This document shows positions 33,525 through 64,000 of a stretch of DNA of 64,000 bases, one piece after another (position 1 is the first letter of the stretch; every line of letters starts with the position of its first letter). Made by a program: the position numbers and the translations under genes. Source of the stretch: Nitrospira sp. MA-1 (GTDB lineage: Bacteria > Nitrospirota > Nitrospiria > Nitrospirales > UBA8639); assembly GCA_032139905.1 (NCBI GenBank), contig JAQJDB010000001.1, positions 1 through 64,000 of the forward strand, written 5' to 3'. The notes under the pieces were generated by a model. That model had not been told where the DNA came from. It did not search any database and saw only the letters and a program-made list of their open reading frames with translations.

Positions 33525-33700
33525 TTATTGAGGGAAACTTAAAAAGCCGCCCGTGAGGTTGAAGACCTTGATGAAGCCATGCTGAAGGAGAATGCGCGCA
33601 GCAAGGTATCCGCGTAATCCGACTCGACAATAGACGACGGTTTCTTGGGAGGGATCCAGTTGCTGAAGATGGTCTCTCAGCTCATCCACGGGAATGAGGC
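33525..33700 (-). pseudogene. displaced 3' fragment of the CoA-disulfide reductase-rhodanese gene
   Basis: The frame encodes the last 55 or so residues of the rhodanese domain (PVDELRDHLQQLDPSQETV...) including the active-site CRVGLRGY, then stops after FLSFPQ. It is the same sequence as the end of the gene at 35684-37351 except one base (A at 33571 for G at 35745, giving HGFIKV for HGFTKV). It has no catalytic or FAD domain upstream and no start of its own in this region. It is best read as a leftover end of the gene displaced by an insertion. Confidence 0.9.
33531..33700. repeat. 170-bp direct repeat, copy 1
   Basis: This is identical to 35705-35874 over 170 bases except position 33571. 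Homology ends abruptly at both edges. It is the left boundary of the exonuclease/nucleotidyltransferase cassette. Confidence 0.97.
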
Positions 33701-33998
33701 TACTATGTGGGTCGAGGTGTGAGCTGTTGAATTCGGAATCTCCTGATTTAGGGAGTATAGGGAGAACGTCGTGTAAAGGCGGTCTAAGGAAGTTCATGAA
33801 GGAGAAGAGATTTTTGCATCGGCAGACTTTTATGTCTAGACCGCTACTCCGCGTGGATAGGGAGTTACCCGAGAGGGAGGACAGAATAGTGGGTGATGAT
33901 CGTGAAACATATGTCGTTCGGCCAGTATCGGTAGTCGGGTTTCATAATTGGTTTTATTGGCTGGACTCCCTAAATTCAGACTGTTAGGATCGGCCCTT
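33701..33998. other. leader region of the inserted cassette
   Basis: Unique sequence lies between the repeat and the exonuclease ATG. It should contain the cassette promoter, but I cannot identify -35/-10 boxes with confidence. An in-frame upstream extension of the exonuclease to 33948 is possible but lacks a ribosome-binding site. No integrase, transposase or tRNA end is present. Confidence 0.4.
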
Positions 33999-34688
33999 AT
34001 GGAGAAAATATCTCAAAAAGTGCGTGCTGTTTTCGATGAAAATTCATCTCGAGGATCCGATTGGGTCAAGGAACAAAGCATTGACGTCTATTTTTCTGCT
34101 GATGTTGAGACGGATGGTCCCATCCCTGGTCCCTATTCCCTTCTTTCGTTCGCCCTGGTCTATGCTGGCCGTTTTGATGGCCATAAATTTGAATCACCTG
34201 AAAACCTGAAGCAAACCTTCTATCGTGAGATAAAACCAATTTCTGATTCATTCGAGTTGGAGGCGTTACGTGTAAATCAGCTTGATCGTGATCGTCTTTG
34301 TCGCGAAGGGAAGGACCCCGTAGATGCCATGACTGAGGCTAGTCGATGGGTTCGAGAAATTGCGGGTCCCTACAGACCAATACTTGTTGCCTACCCATTA
34401 AGTTTCGATTGGACATGGTTATATTGGTATTTTATCCGATTTTCTTCTGAAGGTTCGCCCTTCAACCATTCGGGTTGTTTTGACATAAAAACCGCCTATG
34501 CAGTCAAGGCCAGGATTCCGGTGTCAGCGTCCGGCCGGTCGAATCTTGAAAGCTGGCTTCGTCCCCACCATGAACACTCCCACCATGCCCTAGAAGATGC
34601 GATTGAGCAGGCAGAGATTTTTGCAAACTTGTTCAGGTGGAAGGGTAACCTTGATGGATTTTCTCCAAAAACGTCGGAAAAACGCTAA
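33999..34688 (+). CDS. DEDDh-family 3'-5' exonuclease
   Basis: This 229-residue protein has a DnaQ/RNase T-like exonuclease fold. Motif I is SADVETDG (D35, E37), motif II is YPLSFDWTWL (D137), and motif III is HSHHALEDAIEQAEIF (H195, D200; H-x4-D). All four catalytic acidic residues and the general-base histidine are present, so it should be active on DNA or RNA 3' ends. It has no extra domain. The gene overlaps the following nucleotidyltransferase by 35 bases, so the two are probably co-translated. Flanking direct repeats suggest it arrived as an insert. The substrate (phage DNA, RNA or tRNA) is unknown. Confidence 0.85.
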   Translation: MEKISQKVRAVFDENSSRGSDWVKEQSIDVYFSADVETDGPIPGPYSLLSFALVYAGRFDGHKFESPENLKQTFYREIKPISDSFELEALRVNQLDRDRLCREGKDPVDAMTEASRWVREIAGPYRPILVAYPLSFDWTWLYWYFIRFSSEGSPFNHSGCFDIKTAYAVKARIPVSASGRSNLESWLRPHHEHSHHALEDAIEQAEIFANLFRWKGNLDGFSPKTSEKR

Positions 34689-35640
34689 TTCCCGCCTGGA
34701 TGAGCTCACAAACGAATTGGAAAATGCACGTAACCTTGCTGATGGTAAGGCATGCGTCTATTTAATAGGATCTTACGGTCGTGGAGAGGCCTGTAATCAC
34801 AGTGATCTAGACCTATTCATTGTTGGGGGTGGAACGAAAAAAGAGCGTGACCTAAAAAATCTTGATGAAATTTTGATAAAAGCTGAATTAATTAAGGCTA
34901 CCAGAAAATTGAAATTTCCAGAATTCTCCGGTGATGGTGAGTATCTTTCACACTATACTGTTGATGAACTTATTGGAAATTTAGGTACACGTGATGATGA
35001 TAATACCAACACATTTACAGCACGTCTCCTTCTGCTGTTAGAGAGTCGGCCGCTTTTAGAAGAAAATTTCTATTCAGAGGTAATCTCTAATGTAATTGCT
35101 GCCTACTGGAAGGATTTTGAACGTCATAAATCTGATTTTGTTCCAGCGTTTCTTATGAATGATATCCTCCGGCTTTGGAGAACATTTTGTGTGAATTACG
35201 AGGTTGGGCCTCAGAATAAAAAAGAAAAGCCAGATGAGAAGGCTAAAAGGAAGCTCAAAAATTACAAGCTCAAACATAGCAGACTTTTAACCTGCTATTC
35301 GGCTCTAGTGTATCTTATGGCAGTCATGGCTGAGCAAGGTACGGTAAGTCAAGACGATGCAAAGGAGATGGTTTTTCTTTCTCCCACTGAACGTCTTGAG
35401 TGGCTAAAAAACCAGACAAAATTTGGAGATAAGTCTGGTCAGGTGGATGAAATTATTTCCTTGTATGAAACGTTTTTGGAGAGAACCGATGCACCAAAGG
35501 GTAAGTTGATTGAAATATTTAAGGATCCCAAGAAATGCGAAGATGTTTTCCAAGAGGCCAAGGGATTTGGAGATCAAGTATATGAGCTACTTTGGTCAAT
35601 AGGGAAGGACAACAAAGTTTTTCGAATTCTGGTTGTCTAG
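34654..35640 (+). CDS. pol-beta-superfamily nucleotidyltransferase
   Basis: This 328-residue protein has the nucleotidyltransferase signature YLIGSYGRGEACNHSDLDLFIVG: G39-S40 and D51/D53 of S-D-x-D-L. The C-terminal two-thirds is helical and charged, with DILRLWRTFCVNYE resembling the helical part of DUF294/GlnD-like transferases. The coding sequence is visibly more AT-rich than neighbouring genes, which suggests horizontal transfer. The start ATG at 34654 lies inside the exonuclease gene (35-base overlap); an upstream extension to 34597 is unlikely. It might add nucleotides to RNA or to proteins. Together with the exonuclease it could form a conflict or toxin-like module; this is inference. 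Confidence 0.85.
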   Translation: MDFLQKRRKNANSRLDELTNELENARNLADGKACVYLIGSYGRGEACNHSDLDLFIVGGGTKKERDLKNLDEILIKAELIKATRKLKFPEFSGDGEYLSHYTVDELIGNLGTRDDDNTNTFTARLLLLLESRPLLEENFYSEVISNVIAAYWKDFERHKSDFVPAFLMNDILRLWRTFCVNYEVGPQNKKEKPDEKAKRKLKNYKLKHSRLLTCYSALVYLMAVMAEQGTVSQDDAKEMVFLSPTERLEWLKNQTKFGDKSGQVDEIISLYETFLERTDAPKGKLIEIFKDPKKCEDVFQEAKGFGDQVYELLWSIGKDNKVFRILVV

Positions 35641-35683: not shown

Positions 35684-37351
35684 TTAACCTGTTACTCTGT
35701 CCGAAGGGAAACTTAAAAAGCCGCCCGTGAGGTTGAAGACCTTGGTGAAGCCATGCTGAAGGAGAATGCGCGCAGCAAGGTATCCGCGTAATCCGACTCG
35801 ACAATAGACGACGGTTTCTTGGGAGGGATCCAGTTGCTGAAGATGGTCTCTCAGCTCATCCACGGGAATGAGGCGGGAATGAGGGATATGCGCTTCTTGA
35901 TATTCGTCCTTGGTCCGGACATCTAACAATTGGAGAGAAGGATTCGTCTTTATTTTCTGTTGTAATTCTTCTCCCGTGAGCGTGTTGACCTCACCACGTA
36001 GCGTATTGGCGGCGACGAAACCTGCCATAATGACCGGCCCTTTGGCCGAGTTAAATTGGGGGGCATAGGCCAAATCCAATTGTTCCAAATCCTGGACATT
36101 TAAATTTCCATGTATCGCAGTGGCCAATACATCAATGCGTTTATCCACTCCCTGATCCCCCACAATTTGAGCACCTAACAATCTTCCCGTCTGTTGCTCT
36201 ACGACTAATTTCATGTGAAGCGCATCTGCTCCAGGATAATATTCTGCATGATCCAGGGGGTGGGTGAGGGAGACAAAGTAATTCAAGCCGTGGGCCTTGG
36301 CTTCGTGTTCGCTTAATCCCGTTTTGCCAGCGGTGATGCCCATGCTCTCAACAATTGCCGTTCCGAGGGCACCGTGAAACCTTAAGTCTCCGCCCGCAGC
36401 ATTGGCTCCGGCGACCCTCCCCTGCTTATTGGCGGGGCCGGCTAAAGGAATTCTGGCATATTTGCCAGTCACGAGATGGAGCGTTTCGACCGCGTCACCG
36501 GCTGCATAGATATCGGGGTCAGAGGTTTGCTGTCGTGTATCCACGGCAATGCCTCCTGCTGCACCAATTTCAAGTCCTGCCTCTCTGGCAAGCTTGAGTT
36601 CCGGTCTGACGCCGATCGAGAGAATGGCCAGGTCCATCGGCAGCCGGGTTCCACTTTCTAATTCGGCTTCTTTGGCGAGATCGCCGTCCTGCCGAAATCC
36701 GTTGATACCGTCACCCGCAATAATCTTCACCCCCTTTTCTTGGAGATGATGAGCCACCAGGGTGGCCATGTCCTGATCAAAAGCAGGAAGTATTTGAGGA
36801 GCTTTTTCGACAATCGTCACGGCCAATCCAAGGCCTATCAGGGCCTCAGCCGATTCCAGTCCAATAAATCCCCCTCCAATCACCAAGGCGTGCTGAGAAG
36901 GTTGGCCAGCGAGAAAGGTTTTGATGGCATCAGAGTCAGGAACGGTTTTGACCGTAAAGATATTCCTGGCGTGAATGCCGGGTATGTCGGGCATGATGGC
37001 CCCGGCACCGGGTGCCAGAATGAGTGTGTCATAGGGGTGCGTGGTGATTGCCTGAGTCATCAGGTTTTTCACCTGTACGCATTTCGCCGTTCGGTCTATG
37101 TGAACGACTTCGTGTGACACGTAGGCTTGCACCCTGAAACGTTTCCAAAACCGCTCCGGGGTTTGAAGGAGAAGGTCATCACGATCCGAAATAGTCTCTC
37201 CCACATAATACGGGAGACCACAGTTGGCAAAGGAGACATAGGGCCCTTTTTCAAACATCTCAATATTTGCGGCTTCGTTGGTCCGACGCGCCTTGGCGGC
37301 CGCGCTCGCCCCGCCTGCCACGCCTCCGATAATGATGATGTTGAGGGACAT
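35684..37351 (-). CDS. CoA-disulfide/polysulfide reductase with C-terminal rhodanese domain
   Basis: This 555-residue FAD/NAD-linked disulfide reductase has the FAD motif IIIIGGVAGGASAAAKARR, the active-site motif FANCGLPYYVG (C44), a second dinucleotide motif HALVIGGGFIGLESAEAL, and YAAGDAVE. The C-terminal 100 residues are a rhodanese domain with catalytic CRVGLR (C517). This fusion (CoADR-RHD) reduces CoA persulfide, CoA disulfide or polysulfides with NAD(P)H, releasing sulfide. It is 24 bp after pyruvate kinase on the same strand. Its last 170 bp are duplicated at 33531-33700. The final residues SDRVTG here differ from the displaced copy's Q-stop, so the present end may be supplied by the inserted DNA. 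Confidence 0.93.
   Translation of the reverse strand: MSLNIIIIGGVAGGASAAAKARRTNEAANIEMFEKGPYVSFANCGLPYYVGETISDRDDLLLQTPERFWKRFRVQAYVSHEVVHIDRTAKCVQVKNLMTQAITTHPYDTLILAPGAGAIMPDIPGIHARNIFTVKTVPDSDAIKTFLAGQPSQHALVIGGGFIGLESAEALIGLGLAVTIVEKAPQILPAFDQDMATLVAHHLQEKGVKIIAGDGINGFRQDGDLAKEAELESGTRLPMDLAILSIGVRPELKLAREAGLEIGAAGGIAVDTRQQTSDPDIYAAGDAVETLHLVTGKYARIPLAGPANKQGRVAGANAAGGDLRFHGALGTAIVESMGITAGKTGLSEHEAKAHGLNYFVSLTHPLDHAEYYPGADALHMKLVVEQQTGRLLGAQIVGDQGVDKRIDVLATAIHGNLNVQDLEQLDLAYAPQFNSAKGPVIMAGFVAANTLRGEVNTLTGEELQQKIKTNPSLQLLDVRTKDEYQEAHIPHSRLIPVDELRDHLQQLDPSQETVVYCRVGLRGYLAARILLQHGFTKVFNLTGGFLSFPSDRVTG
35705..35874. repeat. 170-bp direct repeat, copy 2
   Basis: This lies inside the 3' end of the CoA-disulfide reductase-rhodanese gene and matches 33531-33700 with one difference (G at 35745). 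It bounds the exonuclease/nucleotidyltransferase cassette on the right. Confidence 0.97.
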
Positions 37352-49039: not shown

Positions 49040-49522
49040 CTAATCTACCATACTCTCGTTCTTGTGTACCACGATGGTACCCCGCATCACATGGCCCGGT
49101 AAATCGCAAAAATATGGGAACGTACCGGGATGAGATGGGATAAAGACAATGTCTGTTTGACCTCGGGTGGGAAGCAAAACGCGGCTGAGTCCTTCTTTGG
49201 AAAACTGTGGGGCACCACTTCCGCTGACATTCAAGTGGATATCTGTCAGTAGGCCGACCGGCAGAAATGCATGCAGTTCCGTATCCAAATTTTTGAGGAC
49301 CAGGCGGGTTTTTTGCCCCACGGTGAGTGAAAGGCTGTTGGGGTTGAATTCCCGAGATTTAATATTGATAGTCACAACTGTTTCTTCGGTATCATCGGCA
49401 GGAGCGAGACTGACCGGCGTGGCTCCCCTCACTAGGGCCAAGTTTAGGGGGGCAAACACCGTGAGACTCAGCATCAGAAGACCGGCCTGAAAAAATCTGA
49501 ACGAGGGCAGGGGGAACATCAT
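49040..49522 (-). CDS. periplasmic cupredoxin-domain protein
   Basis: This 160-residue protein has a signal peptide (RFFQAGLLMLSLTVFAPLNLALV). The mature domain is a cupredoxin with a type-1 copper site: an upstream His in LDTELHAFLP, and Cys, His and Met in YFCDLPGHVMRG. It is likely a blue copper electron carrier like plastocyanin/azurin or a nitrosocyanin-like domain. The upstream frame to 49594 runs into the dispersed repeat and is not used; ATG at 49522 is preferred over 49519, but no good ribosome-binding site is seen. It is a single gene. Confidence 0.85.
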   Translation of the reverse strand: MMFPLPSFRFFQAGLLMLSLTVFAPLNLALVRGATPVSLAPADDTEETVVTINIKSREFNPNSLSLTVGQKTRLVLKNLDTELHAFLPVGLLTDIHLNVSGSGAPQFSKEGLSRVLLPTRGQTDIVFIPSHPGTFPYFCDLPGHVMRGTIVVHKNESMVD

Positions 49523-49549
49523 AATGAAAGCATTATACCGGCTAGGGGG

Positions 49550-49780
49550 CTGTTGAAAAAAGCCGCCAGCGGCGTTCTCGCCATTTTTCCGCACTCACGT
49601 ACTCGAAGTACGCTCTGCGCGAAAAAATGCCTGCGGCCTTCCGTCTGACATGACTCAGGGCAGGTCTGAAGGAACCCTTCGAAAGGCTCAGCGCAGGTTT
49701 TTTTGAACCGCCCCGAGGTCTTTCATATGCACCGTGCCTGTGGGTTAATTGGCCCTTGGAAATTATTATTATTTAACACT
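49550..49780. repeat. dispersed repeat, copy A
   Basis: This aligns with 50233-50439 over about 200 bp with some substitutions. Shared blocks include TTGAAAAA...GCCGCCAGCGGCGTTCTC, a hairpin CGTACT-N3-AGTACG, GGAACCCTTCGAA, and CGTGCCTGTGGGT.AAT.GGCCCTTGGAAA. Copy A has an extra segment of about 25 bases in the middle. It is non-coding. Confidence 0.85.
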
Positions 49781-50232
49781 CAGGTTAGCGATTCCGGCGC
49801 GAAACGAGCAGAATGAATGGTTAGGCAATCCCTGGAAAAAATTTGGTACAGCCGTAAGTGGAAATATGTATAAAAGGTATAAAATTCGGAAGGTGAGAGA
49901 AAATATCAAGATCCTGCGGGAACGACCGAAAAAATGAGAATATATCTGGAGAACGATCCACTGTGCATCTCATTGAGTTTTTTATCGGTTCCGACCCCCT
50001 TTCGATAGGCATAGCGCTCGTGTTGGTCCTGAGCGTGTTGGCGTATGGATGGTATGAGGTCCGTCGAACCGCCCGCCTCCCTCATATCGGGACGGTCCTG
50101 ATCAAAAATCGATTAAAGACGACCAGCAATTTCCCAACTCCTCGCCGATAAGCAACTTTCCCCGGTTTCCTCGATCCCCGTCCGCAAGACGGCACTCCGA
50201 CAAAGCGCAGCTGTTGAGATTCCCATGTGCTG
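49781..50232. other. spacer between dispersed repeats; possible small membrane protein
   Basis: An ORF from GTG at 49963 to 50151 (62 codons) encodes one hydrophobic segment (LSIGIALVLVLSVLAYGWYEV) followed by basic residues. It could be a small membrane protein, but the start and ribosome-binding site are weak, so it is not called as a gene. Nothing else is seen. Confidence 0.3.
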
Positions 50233-50439
50233 GCAGTTGAAAAATGCCGCCAGCGGCGTTCTCACCATTTTTCCGTGCTCACGTACTGGAGTACGCTCTG
50301 CGGGCAAAAATGACCGCGGCTTTGCTGGAGGAACCCTTCGAAGGCTCAGGGCATGCTTTTGGAGCCGCCTCCGAGGGCTCTGATATGCAACGTGCCTGTG
50401 GGTCAATAGGCCCTTGGAAAATATTATTATTCAACACTC
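50233..50439. repeat. dispersed repeat, copy B
   Basis: This is the second copy of the repeat at 49550-49780, in the same orientation. The CGTACT-GG-AGTACG hairpin is preserved, as are the GCCGCCAGCGGCGTTCTCACC and CGTGCCTGTGGGTCAATAGGC type blocks. Its purpose is unknown. Confidence 0.85.
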
Positions 50440-53566: not shown

Positions 53567-54250
53567 ATGCGCATGATTCTTCTTTTTCTCCTGCTCATGA
53601 TTGTCGTGTTGGGACCCCAACTGTGGGTGTGGTGGGTCTTCCGCCAATATCGTCAACACCGTGAGGATCTTGGTGGAACGGGCGGGGAATTAGCCCGTCA
53701 TTTGCTCAATCGGTTTGGTCTGCAAAAGGTGCGTGTGGAACCCACGCCGATGGGGGACCATTACAATCCCGAAACCAAAGTCGTCGGTTTGAACCCGAAA
53801 CATTACAATGGCAGATCCCTCACCGCCGCAGTCATCGCGGCGCATGAAGTGGGGCATGCTCTGCAAGATCATGAAGGTTATTCACTTTTAAAAGATCGAA
53901 CCCACCTGATCAAATTTGCGCAGAAAGCCGAAAAGGCCGGGTCGTATCTGATGTTGGGCATTCCTGTCCTGGCTGGAGTGACCCGGATTCCTGCCGTGGG
54001 TCTTGCCGTCTTAGTCGTGGCGATCGGGACCATGAGCGTCTCCGCCATGGTGCATCTCATCACCCTACCCGTGGAATGGAATGCGAGTTTTCGGCGGGCT
54101 CTGCCGATCCTCAGAGAAGGCGGCTACCTGGCACCTCCGGATTTGCATGGCGCCAAACGTATCCTTACTGCCGCCGCCCTCACCTATGTCGCCTCCTCAC
54201 TCTTCAGCCTGGTGAATATGTGGCGGTGGATTCGCCTCGTCAGGCGCTAA
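53567..54250 (+). CDS. membrane zinc metallopeptidase, YugP family
   Basis: This 227-residue protein has an N-terminal membrane helix (ILLFLLLMIVVLGPQLWVWW), zinc motif HEVGHALQDHEGY (H93, E94, H97), and hydrophobic segments YLMLGIPVLAGV and LAVLVVAIGTMSVSAMVHLITLP. It ends with ALTYVASSLFSLVNMWRWIRLVRR. The layout matches the neutral zinc metallopeptidase family of YugP (PF04298). The role is unknown, perhaps membrane protein turnover. Two broken copies of its 3' end follow at about 56658-56837 and 57536-57726, so this locus appears to have attracted insertions. Confidence 0.9.
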   Translation: MRMILLFLLLMIVVLGPQLWVWWVFRQYRQHREDLGGTGGELARHLLNRFGLQKVRVEPTPMGDHYNPETKVVGLNPKHYNGRSLTAAVIAAHEVGHALQDHEGYSLLKDRTHLIKFAQKAEKAGSYLMLGIPVLAGVTRIPAVGLAVLVVAIGTMSVSAMVHLITLPVEWNASFRRALPILREGGYLAPPDLHGAKRILTAAALTYVASSLFSLVNMWRWIRLVRR

Positions 54251-54568
54251 ATCTCCTTGGAGACGTCCTGCGGATACGCTTCGGAATGCAACAATAGATA
54301 TCCTCCCCTTCCTCTTAGATCCCCCATCCGGAATGTACAAACTCATCGACAGTCAGGAAGGCGCCCGAATCTATTAGATTTTGATTGGGAAGCCAGATTC
54401 CTGGGGAAATGGATCATGAAATACCGTATGCTTCTTGTGGCTGGTCTTAAGTTGACGGAATTCAATTTTGACCTATGTGGGACCGACGAAATAGTAGATC
54501 CGATGCAATCCATCCTGTGAAGCTTTCCGGGAAGTTCAACAACAGTATTGGTTTTAAGTGACGATCCT
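54251..54568. other. intergenic stretch before the KAP-like gene
   Basis: The plus frame 54257-54520 is in phase with the following large ORF and is separated from it only by a TGA at 54518-54520, but its sequence is not recognised. No other gene, terminator or repeat is seen. Confidence 0.35.
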
Positions 54569-56602
54569 ATGGAGGACACCGCCATATTAAATACAGATAG
54601 GCCTGAAGATTCCTCATCTGATGGTGGAATTGTCCGGCCCAGGATTTCTCTGCCTCCAGAAGGAATGGAATCCATAGATCGCGACCCCTATTTCTCTGAC
54701 AAGGATGACCATGTTTCCTCAATAGCCAGACTGTTGAGAAATCTCGAGATTGAAGAGAAAAGAATTGAAGGTTTTGAGAAAATTTTCACTCCAATCTACG
54801 CCACCCAGTTATCGAAGCTGTTTCCCACTCTAGAGTGCAGAAACCTTTTCTGGCACGGTCTCAATCAAAGTCTCCCTTCTTTGAAGGAAGAGGTTCATCT
54901 TCCAGATTTCCTGATTCTGGAAGCAATCAGGACCTTTTACCCTAACGTCTACGAAGATATCGTTGAATATCCGTGGATATACCTCCCACCCTGGGGTGAG
55001 GAGGCATTTTTTTCTTTTCCCCATGAATTCACCACCAGAGATGACAGAACTTACCTCCTCATCAAAGAGCACATCGAAATGCTATGTGACAACGAGGAGA
55101 ACCCGGAGGTCCTGTGCCAACTTCTTCAAGTTTTATTCTTTGAAGTGAGAAAGGGATTTTTCAAAACGAATATTGGAGATGATGCCTCGGAGCGAGAGTA
55201 TCTCCGTCAGAAACGACTGAGTCATCCGGACATTTTCTGGAAATACTTCACTCTCAGTGTTCCGGCCAGGGAAACGCCAGAACAGGTTGTCGAATCCTTC
55301 ATTAATTCTTGCCGTCGGCTTGGCCAAGACGAGTGTGGAGAGGATGGTGATTCCCATCTTTCAAGTGGGAGGAATAGGAAACAGCTAAGTGAGTTATGGC
55401 AAAAGAGTCCTATGTTTATGCCAATAATGACCCGTGAAACTTCTGTCGTACTTATAGAATGCCTGTACAAGAATATGCATCTCTTCAGAAAAGAAGGAGC
55501 TGATATTTTTTATGACCCAGAATTCTTGGCCGCCATCCGCCTTCTGTTTGATCTTATAGACAACAAGTTGCACTCAGATGAAATGGAAGTTGTGCTGAGT
55601 GACCTCGTCCAACAAACTCCGTCCTTTGAGCTTGCCGTTCGAGTCGTGGATAACGTTCGAAGCAGAATGAGAGATTTATTCAACATCCCTAGGCAAGGCA
55701 ATTTTTATGCACTGAGCTCACAATTGGATGAGAGGCTCACCGCACATTTCATTGAAGGCAAGCGAAATATTTTCAATGAAGAAAAGAATTACGGATACAT
55801 ATTGGCGCAATGGGGCACTTACAAGCCGCAAAATAATCTGAAGGTAAATGATTATGTCTTTGAGCTCATCAAAGAAAATCCCACTGCCATAGGGAAAGTG
55901 CTCGGTGTGTACATGAACCACCATGGGGACAAAACCGGAATTCGGATTAGATGGGAGGACCTTGCCAGAATTTATGATGTACATACGCTGTACGAACTTG
56001 CAAGCCAATCCCTCGATTCTTCGTATTCTAACCGCGATGAAAGAACAGCCGTAGAACTATTTATGAGTCAGTTTGAAGCGCGTACCGAAGCTGCGGCACT
56101 TGAAATGACCCAGCAAGCAAATAAACAGAAGTTCATGCATGCCAGTAGCCAAGGGATTCAGTTGTTCAGGGGAGGCCAATACGAATTGGCATTGGAAGAA
56201 TTCAATCGGACTCTTGATATCACTGATTGGAACGATGAGGTTCATTTAATCCGATTTGTACAGTTGCAAAAATGGCATACCTTGCTCGAACTTGGACTGA
56301 AAAGTGAAGGGGATGTTCGAACACAATTTCATTCGGGTGCTCAGAGGATTGCTTCAAATGATGGCGAGATTCGAGATTTATTCAATGCGGCGTTCCCAAA
56401 AGGTGCCGCGCACGCACTTCAAGAACTGTACTGCTGTATTTTTTATTATCTCCAATGGGAGGCTGCGTCAGCCGTTGAAAAAAAATCAATAAAAAAAGAC
56501 TTTGATGCTCATTTCGGCCTCGCAACTGCCAAAAAAACTTTCGGGGGGACCGAGGAAATAACGAAACGTTGCAGTGAGCTATTGGTGCTGCTAAGACTAT
56601 GA
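54548..56602 (+). CDS. KAP-NTPase-like C-terminal protein without a P-loop, accessory
   Basis: This 684-residue protein lacks any Walker A or B motif. Two segments resemble the helical C-terminal part of KAP P-loop NTPases: LPDFLILEAIRTFYPNVYEDI and RLSHPDIFWKYFTLSVPARETPEQVVESF. In KAP proteins these follow the ATPase domain, which is missing, so the gene is either a truncated remnant or a stand-alone accessory. The C-terminus (ASSQGIQLFRGGQYELALEEFNRTLD) looks TPR-like. The start may be TTG at 54548 or ATG at 54569. It is bounded by the yugP-like gene and a decayed copy of that gene's 3' end. Function unknown; KAP proteins are often in mobile or defence regions. Confidence 0.55.
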   Translation: MVLSDDPMEDTAILNTDRPEDSSSDGGIVRPRISLPPEGMESIDRDPYFSDKDDHVSSIARLLRNLEIEEKRIEGFEKIFTPIYATQLSKLFPTLECRNLFWHGLNQSLPSLKEEVHLPDFLILEAIRTFYPNVYEDIVEYPWIYLPPWGEEAFFSFPHEFTTRDDRTYLLIKEHIEMLCDNEENPEVLCQLLQVLFFEVRKGFFKTNIGDDASEREYLRQKRLSHPDIFWKYFTLSVPARETPEQVVESFINSCRRLGQDECGEDGDSHLSSGRNRKQLSELWQKSPMFMPIMTRETSVVLIECLYKNMHLFRKEGADIFYDPEFLAAIRLLFDLIDNKLHSDEMEVVLSDLVQQTPSFELAVRVVDNVRSRMRDLFNIPRQGNFYALSSQLDERLTAHFIEGKRNIFNEEKNYGYILAQWGTYKPQNNLKVNDYVFELIKENPTAIGKVLGVYMNHHGDKTGIRIRWEDLARIYDVHTLYELASQSLDSSYSNRDERTAVELFMSQFEARTEAAALEMTQQANKQKFMHASSQGIQLFRGGQYELALEEFNRTLDITDWNDEVHLIRFVQLQKWHTLLELGLKSEGDVRTQFHSGAQRIASNDGEIRDLFNAAFPKGAAHALQELYCCIFYYLQWEAASAVEKKSIKKDFDAHFGLATAKKTFGGTEEITKRCSELLVLLRL

Positions 56603-56657
56603 AGAGTGAAAAGGTGCCGAACAAACTTACCAATCGGGGATCGTTCCAATTTCGAAC

Positions 56658-56837
56658 CCGTGGAATGAAATGCCAGCTTCCGGCGGGTCCTTTTCATCCT
56701 GGATGAAGGCGGCTCCCTGGCACCGCCGGATTTGCACGCCGCCAAACGTATCCTCACTGTCGCCGCCCTTACCTATGTCGCCTCCTCTCTCTTCAGCCTG
56801 GTGAGAATGTGTGGCGATGGATTCGATTGGTCCGGCG
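56658..56837 (+). pseudogene. decayed copy of the yugP-like gene's 3' end (copy 2)
   Basis: This aligns with 54067-54246 over about 180 bases (shared blocks GGAATG, GGATTTGCA, GCCAAACGTATCCT, CACCTATGTCGCCTCCTC-like). In frame it has a stop where the parent has Trp (GAA TGA AAT for GAA TGG AAT), and a one-base insertion near the end destroys the NMWRWIRL frame. It is not a gene but a leftover fragment. Confidence 0.88.
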
Positions 56838-57280
56838 TTCATTGAAAGCCCCTACCCCACACTTCGTAATATGTAACCTTGAATTGACCTTCTGGGTTAT
56901 CCTACCTTGACGTCCCAATCACCCTGGATCTCCTGACCATCAATCATTCAGTACCTGTCATGATTTAGACATTCTCAGATGTTTTGATACATCCTGATAC
57001 ACTGGGATACCTCGGTGTTGATGGGGGGGCAAACCGTTCTTTCCCTCAAGCTTCCTATTTCTTTCAATAAATCAATCAGTTGGCAGTATGGAAGTGGGGC
57101 AGTCCGAGGCGAGTGAGGAAATGGCATTAAGGTTGCTCTCTCATGAACCAAGAGCAGGAAGGGAACGACTCAAGAACAAGGAGAATGCCATCATGGACCT
57201 AACCCAATTGAGCATCGGAACTTTGCCAGCGTGTTGGGGAGCCCTCGCCTTTCATTGTTAAGAACAAAAGGAGGACGGTT
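56838..57280. other. intergenic stretch between yugP fragment and the 83-aa gene
   Basis: No gene is supported here. The Shine-Dalgarno AGGAGG just before 57281 belongs to the next gene. No repeat or RNA is recognised. Confidence 0.4.
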
Positions 57281-57532
57281 ATGGAACAAACCAATCGACC
57301 TTTAACGTATGATGAAAAAAAAGCTGCAGACGCCGCCTTCAAAGGATTCCCATGTGACCCTAAGTGGTCTGAGGCGGCTCGAAACGTCTATGACGGCCTT
57401 TCTTTGGCAATGGCGAATCAACGGAATGAAACCTTCCAAGAAGTTCGTCTTTTGGAGGTGGCGACCATTGCAAAGCAGGCAGTGCCCGAGTCCAATCAGA
57501 TGTCAGAAATGATTTGCAGGGAGCAACCGTAG
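57281..57532 (+). CDS. small conserved-looking protein, unknown
   Basis: This 83-residue protein starts behind AAAGGAGG. It reads EQTNRPLTYDEKKAADAAFKGFPCDPKWSEAARNVYDGL, a pattern I associate with small conserved hypotheticals in Nitrospira-like genomes, but no function is known. It ends 4 bases before a second decayed copy of the yugP-like 3' end. It may be a cargo gene of that locus. Confidence 0.6.
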   Translation: MEQTNRPLTYDEKKAADAAFKGFPCDPKWSEAARNVYDGLSLAMANQRNETFQEVRLLEVATIAKQAVPESNQMSEMICREQP

Positions 57533-57535
57533 CCT

Positions 57536-57726
57536 TCACGTTGCCGGTGGAATGGAATGCCCGTTTCCACTGAGCATTGCCGATTCTGGAGGAAGAGGAC
57601 GAGTTCGCACAGACGGATATGGAGGGCGCCAGACGTATTCTTAAAGCCGCAGCCTTGACCTATGTCGCCTCCACTCTCTTCAGCTTTTTGAATATGTGGC
57701 GATGGATTCGCCTAGTCAGGCGGTAA
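57536..57726 (+). pseudogene. decayed copy of the yugP-like gene's 3' end (copy 3)
   Basis: This aligns with the last 190 or so bases of the yugP-like gene and its following bases: CCGGTGGAATGGAATGC, TATGTCGCCTCC, CTCTTCAGC, AATATGTGGCG, ATTCGCCT.GTCAGGCG, then TAAA. A TGA replaces an Arg codon in the FRRALPIL stretch, and the centre is diverged (LEEEDEFAQTD for the parent's LREGGYLAPPD), so it is broken and probably from a diverged relative. Confidence 0.88.
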
Positions 57727-57943
57727 ACCTTCCTGAAAACATTCTGACAATACGATTTAATTGCCCCGAGCGAACCCTGCTGGAGGTCTCACTTTGTAGC
57801 TTTCGCATTCGGAAACGGGATGCCGTGGTCCTATGGCGCTACACGCCAGAAACTTTTTATTGAATCCTAGCCGTTTACCTCAGACTTGGCCCGCTTACCT
57901 ATCACTGACTTCTTTTGTATAAGGCCAACTGCGATGCTACCTC

Positions 57944-59860
57944 TCAATTTGCAGAAGAGGCGACCGCCTCTGCGCGTGAACAGATCGAACGTTCTACCGG
58001 CAAAACCCTCTTGATTTGTTCCAGATGTTCCAAAAGAGTTCTCGTAGCTTCACCCTGAGGGAGTCTGTAAGCAAGGTCTGCGAGTTGCTCCGCAATCCAA
58101 TCCGACCATTCATCCTCACACTCGAACGCTGCGCTGGCGAATAAGAGGATATGTAAGATTTTCAGGGCCTTCTCGGCAGACTGTGCATGCGGCGCTTTCG
58201 CTAGAGCGATGGACGAGATTGCCCGAGCCAAATCCGTATTCCGGTGTGCTGCAGCCACGAGACAGATATCGAACAGTCGATCTGGTTGTGTCTGCCCCTC
58301 CAACTGCTCAATTTTGAAGTCTGGCCCTGAACTCACCTCGCACGCACGCAGGAGGATTTTTGCGCCTAGGTCGAAGTATTGAGAGAAGTAGGCTAATCTT
58401 GACCAAATTGAAACAAAAGGGTCCTTGGCAAGCTCTTCGAGGACATAGGTGACGTCAGTTTCTGACAGACTGCGTCCTTTCAGTTCGGCTGGTCGCAGAT
58501 GTCCATCAAGTGGCCCTGGCATTGCCCAGCCTAGTGGGGAGCCTTTGATGGAAAGACTAGTCATAGCCTCGGAAATCTCCGCAGATCGTGGTATCGGGCA
58601 ACTAGTAGATTGGTGTCTATCCCTAAGCATCCCAAGCCTTCCTATGATTTCTTCTCGGAGAGAAGATCGCGACATTTCACCAGCTCGGTACATCGGTTCA
58701 TGGCGAAGATCGACCATCTGCGCATATGTTCCAGATATATTTCTATTGGAAAGAACCCAACCACGCAGAACTTCCAGGTTAATTTGTCTATTCAGGGTTG
58801 ATTGCATAAGTATTCCAGCATGCATCCATGCACACATACGCTTCCAAAATGGTTCACATAGGGCGCCGCCTTCTAGTAGGTTTATGCGGTCCAGCACAAG
58901 CTGCGAAAAGATGGGGAGCAGTTCATAACAATCAATGCCATCCTGACGAAGCAATTGTTCCTGTAGTAGGTTGGTCATAATCTCGTCCGCTAAGACCTTA
59001 AATCGTTCGTCATATTGACGATTTATCGCGATATCGAGTGTGCCAAGGAGCGCGAATGGATTACCGCTTAAATCGATTGTCCCTAGAGCGCTCCACATTT
59101 CGTCATCAGTAACGATGTCGGTCCAAGCAGCAGGCATAAGATCATCGCGCAATGCACCAAGCAGGCAAATCTCCAACCCTCTCCCAAGATTTCTGTTGAG
59201 CAATTGTTTCCTGTATGAAGGCAATATCTTGGTCAAGTACTCCTCGGGCAAAATGCCACGTGGATTGGGGCCGCAAAAATGCTCAAAATAGGCAAGGGAA
59301 TCTGGCACGATATCGTCGAGCTGTATTTTTCCTCTATCGAGAGCCGTTGTAATTCTCGTTCGGTGACCTGCAAATCCATTACTCATCGCTTCCAATAACT
59401 CTCCAGTTTCCGCATCAGTTACTTCGCGCTCCTCGGCTGCCCTTTGTAGTGCAGAAAAGTCCGGTGCCGTTGGACCAAGACAATCCAAGAGGTTATTGAG
59501 TGCCCGCATCCGGGTATCTCTATCAGGTGAAAGAATCACAAAGTCTCTGAGGTCAGCTAGTGTTTTTTGCTCTTTCTCAACCATCATCTTTAGAAGAAGA
59601 TTGTCCTTTTCGAAAACAACCAGGACTTCATTGCCATTGAGATTTTTCACCTTTTGATTCTCATGGTGAGCAAGTGTACGCCTAATGGCAGCAAGGAGTT
59701 CACCTTGACTTAGGGAAATTCCAGTGGAAAATGCCATGATTGACTGTGTCAATGGGCCATATTGAGATACGAAAGCTACGTCTCCTAGAACTTGCCTTTT
59801 TACTCGAGAGGGCAAGAGGTTGCAAAGGTAGCTAGCGATTAGGGTTTTGTCCATTCTCAT
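57944..59860 (-). CDS. large accessory protein of unknown function
   Basis: This 638-residue protein is mostly alpha-helical with no recognised domain, signal or membrane segment. Notable segments are LLEAMSNGFAGHRTRITTALDRG and ILPVERSICSRAEAV near the C-terminus. Its start overlaps the 3' end of the PIN-like gene (59832-62027) by 29 bases, so the two are co-translated and probably act together. It is possibly a partner of that protein in a conflict or defence module; this is inference from overlap only. Confidence 0.6.
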   Translation of the reverse strand: MRMDKTLIASYLCNLLPSRVKRQVLGDVAFVSQYGPLTQSIMAFSTGISLSQGELLAAIRRTLAHHENQKVKNLNGNEVLVVFEKDNLLLKMMVEKEQKTLADLRDFVILSPDRDTRMRALNNLLDCLGPTAPDFSALQRAAEEREVTDAETGELLEAMSNGFAGHRTRITTALDRGKIQLDDIVPDSLAYFEHFCGPNPRGILPEEYLTKILPSYRKQLLNRNLGRGLEICLLGALRDDLMPAAWTDIVTDDEMWSALGTIDLSGNPFALLGTLDIAINRQYDERFKVLADEIMTNLLQEQLLRQDGIDCYELLPIFSQLVLDRINLLEGGALCEPFWKRMCAWMHAGILMQSTLNRQINLEVLRGWVLSNRNISGTYAQMVDLRHEPMYRAGEMSRSSLREEIIGRLGMLRDRHQSTSCPIPRSAEISEAMTSLSIKGSPLGWAMPGPLDGHLRPAELKGRSLSETDVTYVLEELAKDPFVSIWSRLAYFSQYFDLGAKILLRACEVSSGPDFKIEQLEGQTQPDRLFDICLVAAAHRNTDLARAISSIALAKAPHAQSAEKALKILHILLFASAAFECEDEWSDWIAEQLADLAYRLPQGEATRTLLEHLEQIKRVLPVERSICSRAEAVASSAN

Positions 59861-62027
59861 TACAAAATTCCAAAATCAACTGTTCCATTTCGACTTTTAT
59901 TTGGTTAGCCAGATCGTCAATCAAGGTATTGTTGGCTGGCAACAACGGCTCTAACACGGCCTGCTCCATCCATTCCAAGAATGCCTCATATCGCTTGGGT
60001 TTGAGAGGTCCCATAGGACTGAACAGAGGAATGAGGTGCCTGACATAAACCTCACGATTTTGGACACTGTCTTCGTTGAAGTGAGCAGTTCGTTCCCAGT
60101 CAATTGGCGAAGGTGACACGTTTTCCCAAACCCAGTTCGTAAGAGTCACCGTCTGCTCGACTGGCATATTATCGTCTTGCCATAAACGGCGAATGGTGAG
60201 GATACAAACAAGACGCAACCTGGCGAGATAGGGTGTTTCTGTTGGATGTTGGATCATATCCAAGCTGCGAATGCGCATGAGGAGCTGTCGGATTACCCTT
60301 AGCTCGGGATTTTCGATCAATTGGTTGTCCTGATCAAATAATGCTGCGCGCAACAATCGCTCAAGCTCATCAGGATCTACTGGTATCAAAGCGAAACCCG
60401 CTTCTCGGAGCTGATGTAAGGACCTCTGTTTCTTCTTGTTGTCTATTAATCCGTGTGCTTCAAGATAGCTAATTAGATCTAGAGTGCAAGAAATTGGCAC
60501 ATTGCGTCCCTTTTTGTCTGTAAGAAGACCATGGCGATTTAGATAGCGGTCATCGATGCATACAATGTCGCACATTCCAGTGTCGGCAAGAAATCCTGAA
60601 AGAGATCCGATCATCTCATTATCGACATCATGTCGCGGAAGAAAAATGGCCTTACCATTATTTATGGCCTCGACTAGTGCGGACCGAATGTCGTCTATAT
60701 TGTTATTAAGTCGTTCACACTCTCTGTTTGCAGACATAAGGATAGACTGTTCTTCTCTCATGGATGGGAGGACCAGGAGATCTACACCGCAACGACACAC
60801 CGACTGCAGGAGTCCAGCTTGCTGTAGATATGTAATAGCGAGGTCATCGAGATATACGGGAGCGCTAAAAATGGAGGCAGCAGTCAGCGTGTCCACTTCC
60901 TGGCCTTTGTCGTGGGCAACTAGGTACTTTCTAGCCTGCATATACATTTCACTACTAAGTTTCCCTGTCTCAACCAGAAGGCGTCCTAAGTCGGTGGTCG
61001 ACAAAATTAATTTGTCGTACTCCTTTAAAGCAGCTTCTTTCTCAAGGAATGTGCGCAATTGATATATAGGGCGTGGATGAACCACGTGGCCATTGTTGAT
61101 GCGAGCAGCTTCCAGCATTTCAGCAAGATCGCGGCCGACCTCCTCAACAAGCCATGGCGGGGGTTCTATAGATAAAGTCAATGGTTTTAGCTGTTCTTTT
61201 TCTATGAGTTCACGAATCTCTTCGGCATTCTCAATGCGTGAAGGTTGGTGAAAACGCACACGGCGACGTTCGTTGAGAAGAGCAACCATGGTCTCAGGTG
61301 CCAGAACAATATGATCAAAAGCCGTGAGGACAATTCGGAGGAGGTCTAGGTATCCAAGCACCAATAGGGAAGTGATATCTAACCCCACAACCCAGGAGGG
61401 TTGAAGTGGAATGGTCTGTCGCGCCCCTGAAGCTATCGGGATGATCACACGGCGGCGGCCATCACCCTGCTCAGCATTCCGTCGAGGGAGGTCGATAAGT
61501 ATCCGTGAAAGCGGTATATGGAGCATGGCTGCTGCCGTATGCAAGGGCACTTCTCCTTTTAGCAAATTGCGTTCGATTAACCGTTCACGCTCGCGGTGTG
61601 CGGGCATCATCTCCTGAACAAGAGTTCGCATGTCCACTCGATGGACCGGACCACTGTCCGAAGACAAATCTGCTGCTCGAGACATCCATGTTGGATCTGC
61701 ATCCTGATCTCGCCCAAGTTGAATAACCAATGAATAGGCATTCATAAGAACATTTGGGTCATTCGGGGCCTTGCTTGCCGCAAGTTTGGCTAGCTCAATT
61801 GCTCGGTTAGCAGTTGTATCAGCTTCAGCAGCTATCGATGCAAGGCGAAGTAGTAGATCCGCATTGTATTGATCCCGCTTGCTCCATTCCCGATCGACGA
61901 TCGTTGGAAATCTCTCCCAGTTTCCCGACTGAATTGCTAAATTCATGTCCAGCAGAAGATCTGCCGAGTTGTTGCGAGCATTGAGAAGCTGGTCATTGAT
62001 TGCACGAGACTCTATTGTCTGCCCCAA
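59832..62027 (-). CDS. TPR/PIN-like protein, 3' part of an interrupted gene
   Basis: This 731-residue ORF has an N-terminal helical TPR-like part, then PIN-like segments: VVGLDITSLLVLGYLDLLRIVL (acidic motif I), APVYLDDLAITYLQQAGLL, and CDIVCIDDRYLNRHGLLTDKKGRNVPISCTLDLISYL. These resemble PIN RNase domains, which cut RNA with clustered acidic residues. The start is a TTG at 62027. Just upstream in the same frame is a TGA at 62040-62042, and beyond it the frame continues into the IS-interrupted upstream part (63353-64000), so this is probably the 3' part of a longer gene. It overlaps its partner at 57944 by 29 bases. It may have lost function. Confidence 0.6.
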   Translation of the reverse strand: MGQTIESRAINDQLLNARNNSADLLLDMNLAIQSGNWERFPTIVDREWSKRDQYNADLLLRLASIAAEADTTANRAIELAKLAASKAPNDPNVLMNAYSLVIQLGRDQDADPTWMSRAADLSSDSGPVHRVDMRTLVQEMMPAHRERERLIERNLLKGEVPLHTAAAMLHIPLSRILIDLPRRNAEQGDGRRRVIIPIASGARQTIPLQPSWVVGLDITSLLVLGYLDLLRIVLTAFDHIVLAPETMVALLNERRRVRFHQPSRIENAEEIRELIEKEQLKPLTLSIEPPPWLVEEVGRDLAEMLEAARINNGHVVHPRPIYQLRTFLEKEAALKEYDKLILSTTDLGRLLVETGKLSSEMYMQARKYLVAHDKGQEVDTLTAASIFSAPVYLDDLAITYLQQAGLLQSVCRCGVDLLVLPSMREEQSILMSANRECERLNNNIDDIRSALVEAINNGKAIFLPRHDVDNEMIGSLSGFLADTGMCDIVCIDDRYLNRHGLLTDKKGRNVPISCTLDLISYLEAHGLIDNKKKQRSLHQLREAGFALIPVDPDELERLLRAALFDQDNQLIENPELRVIRQLLMRIRSLDMIQHPTETPYLARLRLVCILTIRRLWQDDNMPVEQTVTLTNWVWENVSPSPIDWERTAHFNEDSVQNREVYVRHLIPLFSPMGPLKPKRYEAFLEWMEQAVLEPLLPANNTLIDDLANQIKVEMEQLILEFCNENGQNPNR

Positions 62028-62170
62028 GTAAAAATGTGCTCATGCCTTGGCCGATCTGAAATCATTGCCCCAATCCTCCACATCTGGATTTTCTTCGAAG
62101 AATGCCAGTGGTCTTCCCCCGAATTTACGGACACATCTAAAAAGCCTCATACTAGGCAAGGAGGTGTGTC

Positions 62171-62458
62171 ATGGAGCAACGGAGAAAGTACAGCCAAGAG
62201 TTTAAGCAGGAAGCCGTTCAACTGACCAAACAGGCCGGTGGGGCGATTACCCAAGTGGCGAAGGCTTTAGGCCTTAATGCGGCCATGTTGGGGCGGTGGT
62301 GTCGGGAGGCCGGACGGCGAGGGGCGAAAGCTTTTCCAGGCACTGGGATGCCTCACGATCAAGAGTTGGCTCGCCTCAAACGTGAATTGGCCCTGGTCAC
62401 TCGCGAGCGGGATTTTTTAAAAGAGGCGGCAGCGTTCTTCGCCAAGACCTCCCGATAA
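62171..62458 (+). CDS. IS3-family transposase OrfA
   Basis: This 95-residue protein is an IS3-type OrfA with a helix-turn-helix of the form FKQEAVQLTKQAGGAITQVAKALGLNAAMLGRWCREAG, followed by a leucine-zipper-like coil (ARLKRELALVTRERDFLKEAAAFF). It binds the IS ends. Its stop TAA at 62456-62458 is 8 bases before OrfB's ATG, and a slippery TTTAAAA lies in frame at 62416-62422. Confidence 0.94.
   Translation: MEQRRKYSQEFKQEAVQLTKQAGGAITQVAKALGLNAAMLGRWCREAGRRGAKAFPGTGMPHDQELARLKRELALVTRERDFLKEAAAFFAKTSR
62416..62422 (+). other. programmed -1 frameshift heptamer TTTAAAA
   Basis: The heptamer sits in the OrfA frame as T-TTA-AAA, matching the X-XXY-YYZ rule. The -1 frame runs open from here into OrfB with no stop before the ATG at 62467, so an OrfAB fusion transposase can be made. 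Confidence 0.75.
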
Positions 62459-62466
62459 GGGATGCC

Positions 62467-63336
62467 ATGATTCAACGTTGTCGCACCATGTTTCCTCTGC
62501 GTCTGATGTGTCGTCTCCTCCACGTCTCCCCGAGTGGGTTTTATGCCCGGCAGCGCCGCTCTCCGAGTCCCTGGGCTCAAGACTGTCAGCGCCTGACGGC
62601 CGCCATTCGCATCATCCATGCAGACAGTGATGGGGTCTATGGGAGCCCGAAGATCTGGCAGGTGTTACGCAGGCAAGGCGAGGGCTGTGGGAAACATCGT
62701 GTTGCCCGTTTAATGCAACGGGAGCGGTTGCGAGGGATTCCTGCTCCCACGCGTTGGAAACGGCGGAGATCTGGAGACCGACCGGCTGGAATCACGAATC
62801 AGTTGGCCCGGGATTTTTCAGCCCCAGGTCCGAATGCCAAATGGGTGACGGATATCACCTATATTCCCACGCAAGAAGGCTGGCTGTACTTGGCGGTGGT
62901 GCTCGATTTGTTCTCTCGGCAAGTGATTGGGTGGTCGATGCAGCCACAACTGGGACGGGACCTGGTCCTCCAAGCCGTGCTGATGGCCGTGTGGCAGCGG
63001 ACGAGTGCGGCCCCTGTCATCCTGCATTCCGACCGAGGCACCCAGTATACCTCACAGGAGTTTCAAGCCTTTCTCCAGGCTCATGGGATTGTCAGCAGTA
63101 TGAGTGGCGTGGGAAGTTGTTATGACAATGCCGTGGCAGAGAGTTTCTTTGGCCTCCTCAAACGAGAGCGAGTCCATCGGCGGCAGTACCAAACCCGGGC
63201 AGAGGCCCGCGCCGATATTTTTGACTACATTGAGCGGTTTTACAATCATCAGCGGAGCCACTCCTTTACTCAGGGACTGGCCCCGAAGAATTTTAGGGAG
63301 CAACACGATCCACAGTCTTCTTTAACCCGTCCGTGA
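62467..63336 (+). CDS. IS3-family transposase OrfB (DDE integrase core)
   Basis: This 289-residue catalytic subunit has the rve/DDE core: first Asp in WVTDITYIP, second Asp in ILHSDRGTQYTS, and Glu in NAVAESFFGLLKRE, preceded by an HTH_21-like segment (FYARQRRSPSPW...YGSPKIWQVLRRQGEGCGKHRVARLM). It is probably made as an OrfAB fusion by frameshifting. The gene appears intact, so the element could still be active. Confidence 0.96.
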   Translation: MIQRCRTMFPLRLMCRLLHVSPSGFYARQRRSPSPWAQDCQRLTAAIRIIHADSDGVYGSPKIWQVLRRQGEGCGKHRVARLMQRERLRGIPAPTRWKRRRSGDRPAGITNQLARDFSAPGPNAKWVTDITYIPTQEGWLYLAVVLDLFSRQVIGWSMQPQLGRDLVLQAVLMAVWQRTSAAPVILHSDRGTQYTSQEFQAFLQAHGIVSSMSGVGSCYDNAVAESFFGLLKRERVHRRQYQTRAEARADIFDYIERFYNHQRSHSFTQGLAPKNFREQHDPQSSLTRP

Positions 63337-63352
63337 AACTGGGGGAAGACCA

Positions 63353-64000
63353 CAGAATGGAAGCATGTCCAAGCTTTGGATCATGTCGTATGCACTCTAC
63401 TAATCGGCGGGCATTGTGTTTGGTTCGTTCGAATTGGAATAGCTTCTCCGCTAGTGGACGTAATGCCTTCCAATCTCCTGCTCGTTCAATTTCTCGTACA
63501 AGATTCTGGAGGTCTAGTAACACTCCTGTCCGTGAATAGATCTCTTCAAGGGTGGTTCGGGCATCTCCACCCTCCCTTCTGAGAATCACTACACGAAGGC
63601 GATCATAGTCATCATCGAAATCACTCTTGTGCTCCTCCAATACATGCTTTGCTCGGGCAATTTGCCCATCCGCTAGCAGCGCCTCAATTCTTTTCCCCGC
63701 TAGAGTAGCTATTGGGACACCTGTGACTAGGCGACTCTCTTCTTGCTCTAAAAAATCCGCATACTCGCGCGCAGTCATAGTAATCTCGCTCAAAAGAACC
63801 TCGGCAATAATCTCCTGGCCCTTCAGCCCACCCATCTGCGTCCGCTGTATAAGGTAACGTTGGAGCGGGCCTTTATCAAAATCAACGTCAAATGCGAGGG
63901 CGATAGGTAGAAAATTCACCGCCTGTGCAGGATCTTTCATGGCCTCTCCAACTTCTCCACGAGCCACCTTCGAGATTTCTTGTTTTTCTTCCGTGAGTCT
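63353..64000 (-). pseudogene. 5' part of the IS-interrupted TPR/PIN-like gene, continuing past the window
   Basis: The minus frame is open from the window edge through the helical sequence ...GGLKGQEIIAEVLL..., ...LLADGQIARAKHVLEEHK... and ends at ...KLGHASIL where the IS cuts in (the ORF then runs into the IS). If the IS and one CAG are removed, the reading frame continues as ILAFFEENPDVEDWGNDF and reaches a TGA (62040-62042), after which the same frame runs straight into the 731-residue ORF. Helical repeats suggest TPR. The beginning of the gene is outside the window. Confidence 0.75.

Follow-up and report, generated by a model that had tools for sequence, protein, structure and literature searches.

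Organization of the region behind yugP

We analysed a window of 64,000 nt from Nitrospira sp. MA-1 (positions 1 to 64,000 of contig JAQJDB010000001.1) and found that a yugP-like peptidase gene is followed by two displaced and decayed versions of its own 3' end, each lying beyond a different cargo gene. The yugP-like gene itself (positions 53567-54250, plus strand) is intact, belongs to the Zn_peptidase_2 family (PF04298, E=1.7e-65), and forms the left border of a region that varies among related genomes. Nucleotide comparison defined the segment that recurs in both fragments, hereafter the tail (54060-54250, plus strand).

A first-pass annotation, made from the letters of this DNA alone, had described two broken copies of the yugP 3' end behind cargo genes, and this description was borne out. 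Fragment 1 (56656-56837, plus strand) is 84% identical to yugP by blastn (E=4e-49) and extends from approximately nt 499 of the gene to the stop codon; it has an in-frame TGA, and its reading frame is shifted by an insertion of 2 nt. Fragment 2 (57536-57757, plus strand) is 74% identical (E=6e-35), begins at approximately nt 492, reaches the stop codon and may continue for ~30 nt past it, and also contains an in-frame TGA. These were the only two other places in the genome that significantly matched the yugP 3' end; the next matches were at chance level (E>1). The junction of fragment 1 is the same in three related genomes (G017, G018, and G012).

The cargo between yugP and fragment 1 (cargo 1; 54405-56602, plus strand) was recognized by its homology to a full-length KAP/PifA-like NTPase gene in G017 (L042:3231-6352), which is complete and encodes the P-loop (PF07693). 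The open reading frame (ORF) in the window spans 54548-56602 (684 aa), and its homology begins inside the G017 gene. Thus, the KAP-like gene of the first-pass annotation does have KAP/PifA homology, but it is a truncated remnant without the P-loop half. A Pfam search with the window ORF gave no match. Cargo 2, between the two fragments, is an 83-aa ORF (57281-57532, plus strand) of unknown family that is shared only with G017 and had no match in Pfam or PADLOC. Beyond fragment 2, the variable region continues with genes for a 638-aa protein and a TPR/PIN-type protein (57944-62027, minus strand), homologues of which lie behind yugP in G019.

Filled and empty sites in related genomes

We compared this region among 20 genomes of the same genus, marine Nitrospirales metagenome-assembled genomes such as NPIRA03. 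yugP was intact in 17 of the 20. The DNA behind it varied in length from ~40 bp to ~20 kb, and the right border was conserved. The border genes begin ~40 bp after yugP in G008 and G006; in the window's genome the border gene is at C1:76143, ~22 kb from yugP. The types of cargo found behind yugP include KAP NTPase, VapBC, DsrE with cytochrome c, DUF1614, TPR/PIN genes, and a Dsr1-like gene.

Tail fragments of yugP were present in six genomes (two each in G000 and G017; also in G018, G012, G016, and G001). The 3' end was kept in eight of the nine fragments; the remaining one, in G012, is internal. None of the nine contained the 5' part of yugP, and no 5' remnant was found in any genome examined.

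Two genomes allowed the order of events to be read. A VapBC pair lies between the intact yugP and the tail fragment in G016, and downstream of the displaced tail is the DUF1614 gene. In G002 and G009 this gene is directly behind intact yugP, and the offsets from the stop codon agree to within 7 nt. Similarly, G001 has a DsrE/cytochrome c pair between yugP and the tail fragment, and downstream of that fragment is F52 (our label), which is directly behind intact yugP in G005 and G007, with the offset agreeing to within 2 nt. G016 and G001 are matched to empty sites in these relatives, and the newest cargo is next to yugP. Because the DNA downstream of the old tail is the DNA found behind intact yugP elsewhere, each insertion must have landed beside yugP, shifting the earlier tail and cargo outward. 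The second fragment in G017 is followed by the start of the VapBC cassette that directly adjoins yugP in G016 and G004. The first-pass annotation had suggested that cargo bounded by 3'-end fragments arose by serial insertion, and had proposed looking for successive insertions in relatives; the filled and empty pairs and the lack of 5' remnants agree with that suggestion.

We also noticed that G003 has two contigs with yugP (L046 and L047), encoding proteins 98% and 97% identical to that of the window. This may be a full tandem copy or an effect of assembly.

Allelic types of the yugP tail

The 5' and 3' parts of intact yugP have conflicting histories. Trees made from the two parts rejected each other in approximately unbiased (AU) tests (p=0.005 and p<1e-50). 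In G019, for example, the 5' part of yugP is sister to that of G009 (~90% identity), and the 3' end is only 79% identical and resembles that of the other clade.

Because the AU test did not settle where fragment 2 belongs, we used diagnostic sites instead: 15 tail positions at which the two main clades (A-type and B-type) differ. The intact yugP in the window was A-type at all 15 sites. Fragment 1 had 11 A-type and 2 B-type sites, and fragment 2 had 1 A-type and 12 B-type sites. As judged from these sites, fragment 2 is not a copy of the present resident tail and is of a different allelic type. The first-pass annotation had treated both fragments as copies of the resident gene; they are yugP 3' ends, but this origin does not hold for the second. 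Since fragment 2 is B-type and the resident tail is A-type, tails have probably been exchanged at this locus.

Displaced gene ends at other loci

Similar fragments were found at other genes. We scanned 1.66 of the 4.76 Mb of the genome (contig C7, 1.6 Mb, and the window) for fragments of gene ends less than 3 kb from the gene and more than 55% identical to it. There were eight 3' fragments from seven genes, all downstream of the intact gene. The genes are yugP and those encoding CoA-disulfide reductase (CoADR), PMT, a UvrA-like protein, an Fe-S protein, a PD-(D/E)XK protein, and an unnamed 444-aa protein. There were also 5' fragments, all upstream, of three genes (AtpG, a cupredoxin gene, and the gene for a 406-aa protein; an IS3 transposase was left out). 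No end fragments of the opposite polarity were found within the same limits. Neither kind of end fragment turned up in 400 kb from each of two control genomes of the same family and order, where ~5 would be expected from ten genes in 1.66 Mb. The first-pass annotation had raised the possibility of a recurring mode of integration on the basis of two loci, and the seven genes with 3' fragments support it.

For several of these genes we searched the relatives with queries in which the gene end was joined to the DNA beyond the fragment, as expected of an empty site. A clear case was PMT, for which there was an uninterrupted match in five relatives (G018, G012, G010, G004, and G003). The intact end and the fragment of PMT both encode EPLL followed by a stop, with different codons; thus, a homologous gene, rather than random cargo, is the likely source of the intact end. 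There was an uninterrupted match for the UvrA-like gene in G018, and other genomes carry further tail fragments. AtpG, with a 5' fragment, is a mirror case: the site is filled in G000, G002, and G012 and looks empty in several others.

The CoADR locus, at which the first-pass annotation had seen the same pattern, represents an event of this kind, with a displaced tail and an empty site in relatives. CoADR, an FAD reductase with a rhodanese domain (PF07992/PF00581), is encoded at 35684-37351 (minus strand). Its displaced tail (33531-33700, minus strand) is 99.4% identical over 170 nt and keeps both the original end of the protein (SFPQ and a stop) and the original downstream DNA. Between the two lies cargo on the plus strand (33948-35640), consisting of ORFs for a DEDDh exonuclease and a nucleotidyltransferase (33948-34688 and 34597-35640). 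The intact CoADR ends in SFPSDRVTG, so that its last codons are altered relative to the fragment. In five relatives, CoADR ends in SFPQ or similar, followed by the DNA that follows the fragment in the window.

Several observations at these loci stand on their own. CoADR is in pieces in G010 (residues 1-40, 30-120, and 484-549; G010:C1:3778434-3779179), and only tail pieces are present in G014 and G019. The UvrA-like gene with its displaced tail is at 3504-7206 of L066 (G000:C7:140001-160000); several tail fragments of it occur in G016, G004, G002, G009, G011, and G017, and these may be a second serial array. A possible mirror case within the window is a copy of the 5' end of the cupredoxin gene (49040-49594) that lies upstream of the gene (50232-50402, minus strand). 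In the interval 49548-50439, the cupredoxin head and its upstream DNA are repeated at ~75-81% identity and the intervening DNA is partly repeated; this head copy may be a plain tandem duplication. We considered tandem segmental duplication for the fragments in general and rejected it: the cargo was not repeated beyond the fragment at 9 of 12 places, the exceptions being the IS3 transposase, the PD-(D/E)XK region, and the cupredoxin head.

Right ends of the fragments and the presence of Ku

In 7 of 10 aligned events the right end of the homology was close to the end of the stop codon (at -21, -15, -10, -4, -3, 0, and +2 nt). Right ends within ~20 nt of the stop codon point to incoming DNA that carried a homologous gene tail, and not to a bare duplication of the target.

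Ku, which functions in end joining, is encoded in the window's genome and in 7 of the 20 genus members, including five of the six that have yugP fragments. Fragments were present in 5 of 7 genomes with Ku versus 1 of 13 others (p of approximately 0.007, calculated by hand and ignoring phylogeny). We take this association as a lead only.

A model for insertion behind gene ends

Based on these results, we propose that incoming DNA consisting of a gene tail and downstream cargo recombines by homology within the resident tail and closes illegitimately or by way of a circle, thereby displacing the old tail. We put the probability of this at roughly 0.6. The region behind yugP would be a landing site for horizontally acquired genes. 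The incoming DNA would come from related Nitrospirales and contain a yugP tail followed by other genes. Homologous recombination inside the resident tail would leave yugP intact and in frame, with the new genes immediately downstream of its stop codon. At its other end, the incoming DNA would be joined without homology to a variable point in the resident tail; this could be the work of end joining, or it would follow if the DNA entered as a circle and integrated by a single crossover. The displaced tail, together with all that stood behind it, would move downstream, and the tail would decay there. Repeated insertions would leave yugP followed in turn by cargo 1, the displaced tail, cargo 2, and a still older tail. 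How the DNA closes, through a circle or by end joining, and which enzymes take part (RecA, Ku) are inferences. A broader proposal, for which we would give somewhat short of even odds, is that this genus routinely acquires genes in this way, using the ends of housekeeping genes as landing pads, tails or heads from relatives as anchors, and a non-homologous closure that is perhaps helped by Ku; the displaced ends would then be a readable and datable record of one acquisition after another at many loci.

Several points weigh against this model. No donor molecule, circle, or intermediate was seen. The placement of fragment 2 outside the resident clade was not significant (AU p=0.34), and the B-type sites are largely the outgroup state; fragment 2 may therefore derive from an earlier resident tail instead of foreign DNA. 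It also may run 31 nt past the stop codon, and the right ends of two older events (g19010 and the PD-(D/E)XK gene) are unclear. The two CoADR copies are 99.4% identical up to the junction, and a plain long target duplication would fit that locus too. The thresholds of the scan were fixed after the hits had been seen, and the controls amounted to only 0.8 Mb. Lastly, G001 has a fragment, but no Ku was found there.

The strongest competing explanation, which we consider rather unlikely, is that cargo inserts anywhere with duplication of 70-250 bp of target, and that only insertions that spare the gene survive. This would predict the polarity that we see, with 3' fragments downstream and 5' fragments upstream, and CoADR, with 170 nt duplicated, the intact copy altered at its last codons, and the original end in the fragment, looks much like such an event. 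However, duplications of this type should often run into intergenic DNA, and hardly any of the right ends, which cluster at the stop codon, reach it. In addition, the ends of PMT, the Fe-S gene, and the UvrA-like gene resemble ends of homologous genes with different codons, and both the tail of fragment 2 and the chimeric yugP of G019 imply exchange of tails. Because the right ends cluster at the stop codon and PMT encodes the same end with different codons, a homologous tail carried by the donor is favoured over bare target duplication.

Integrase-encoding islands that replace the 3' end of a gene, such as e14 at icd, leave the far side of the insert bordered by a 3' fragment of the target. 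It is possible that site-specific elements of this type brought replacement tails to the yugP 3' end and later lost their integrases. The geometry is the same, and the starts of the two window fragments, no more than 7 nt apart, fall at a conserved stretch, GTGGAATGGAATGC, which suggested a fixed recombination core. Starts in other genomes argue against such a core: there are five distinct starts, and those at approximately nt 310, 540, and 595 differ from those in the window (492 and 499). No tyrosine recombinase (PF00589) matched near yugP in seven genomes, and serine recombinases were not noticed among the translated ORFs, with no genome-wide search made for them. With variable starts and no tyrosine recombinase nearby, one site-specific integrase with one core is unlikely. 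The same scar is also found at many unrelated genes, and we regard integrative elements as a distinctly poor explanation. No tRNA or tmRNA that might be a target is present within the window, and an Rfam search of the region for structured RNA gave no match. Even less probable is that the fragments are tandem full-length yugP paralogues that decayed in place, the finding that the first-pass annotation had said would count against its view. The yugP-like sequences are indeed in order and on the same strand. They lack 5' remnants in every genome, begin beside cargo and end at the stop codon, and the cargo differs between fragments and is itself not duplicated. Given the matched filled and empty sites, this origin can be set aside.

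Comparison to known systems

The arrangement behind yugP resembles that of rhs genes, which are followed by strings of displaced 3' fragments and for which a circular intermediate has been proposed (Jackson et al. 2009, PMC2935791). Common to both are an intact gene, a series of decayed 3' fragments behind it that differ in length and are separated by other genes, and the shunting of old ends downstream; the rhs model likewise has a circle with a gene fragment that integrates by homologous recombination. In contrast to rhs, where the conserved core is displaced along with a new variable toxin tip, the yugP tail stays conserved up to its stop codon, so that the protein remains almost the same. 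The genes here are ordinary housekeeping genes, and the gain is in the genes behind them.

Type VI secretion system (T6SS) effector genes of Vibrio cholerae are displaced sequentially, and homology-facilitated illegitimate recombination (HFIR) has been suggested as the mechanism (Kirchberger et al. 2017, PMC5361080). As in the T6SS arrays, there is a homologous anchor on one side and an illegitimate join on the other, the newest module is proximal, and older 3' ends are pushed back, along with their genes, to form an array. Two features of HFIR are found here: the homologous anchor at one end (seen in the conflict between the tail and 5' trees and in the homologous gene ends with different codons) and the variable non-homologous join at the other. 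Integration of a circle by a single crossover yields the same product as HFIR from linear donor DNA. Unlike the T6SS arrays, which contain selected effector-immunity pairs, the cargo here is mixed (KAP NTPase, VapBC, DsrE/cytochrome c, exonuclease/nucleotidyltransferase) and several unrelated genes are involved. By this comparison, the yugP case appears to work like the rhs and T6SS displacements, but at housekeeping genes with a conserved tail.

Insertions with long target duplication are known from Helicobacter pylori (Nobusato et al. 2000, as described in PMC1643837). Those insertions are similar in having small cargo, often related to defence, inside a long direct repeat of the target. They differ in that the repeats here mostly terminate with the stop codon and that several of them consist of two copies that do not share an origin. 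The likeness to the icd/e14 islands is in the 3' fragment of the target at the far end; here, no integrase and no fixed core were found. Searches of the literature on minimal mobile elements and on Nitrospira islands found nothing.

Bacteria have many variable regions that lack an integrase, and the entry of small gene sets into them calls for an explanation. From displaced gene ends one can tell which side of an insert was joined by homology, which side was not, and in what order inserts arrived. If the pattern holds across the genus, it would offer a signature with which any genome could be scanned, such events counted, and the role of end-joining genes tested.

Other features of the window

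An IS3-family element (62168-63350, with HTH_21 and rve transposase domains) appears to split the TPR/PIN-type gene of the variable region. The two pieces, 59832-62027 and 63293-63967, fall into a single homology group, which is longer in G019. Near the left end of the window (285-912), a protein-coding unit of 147 nt (49 aa) is repeated, with four to five copies.

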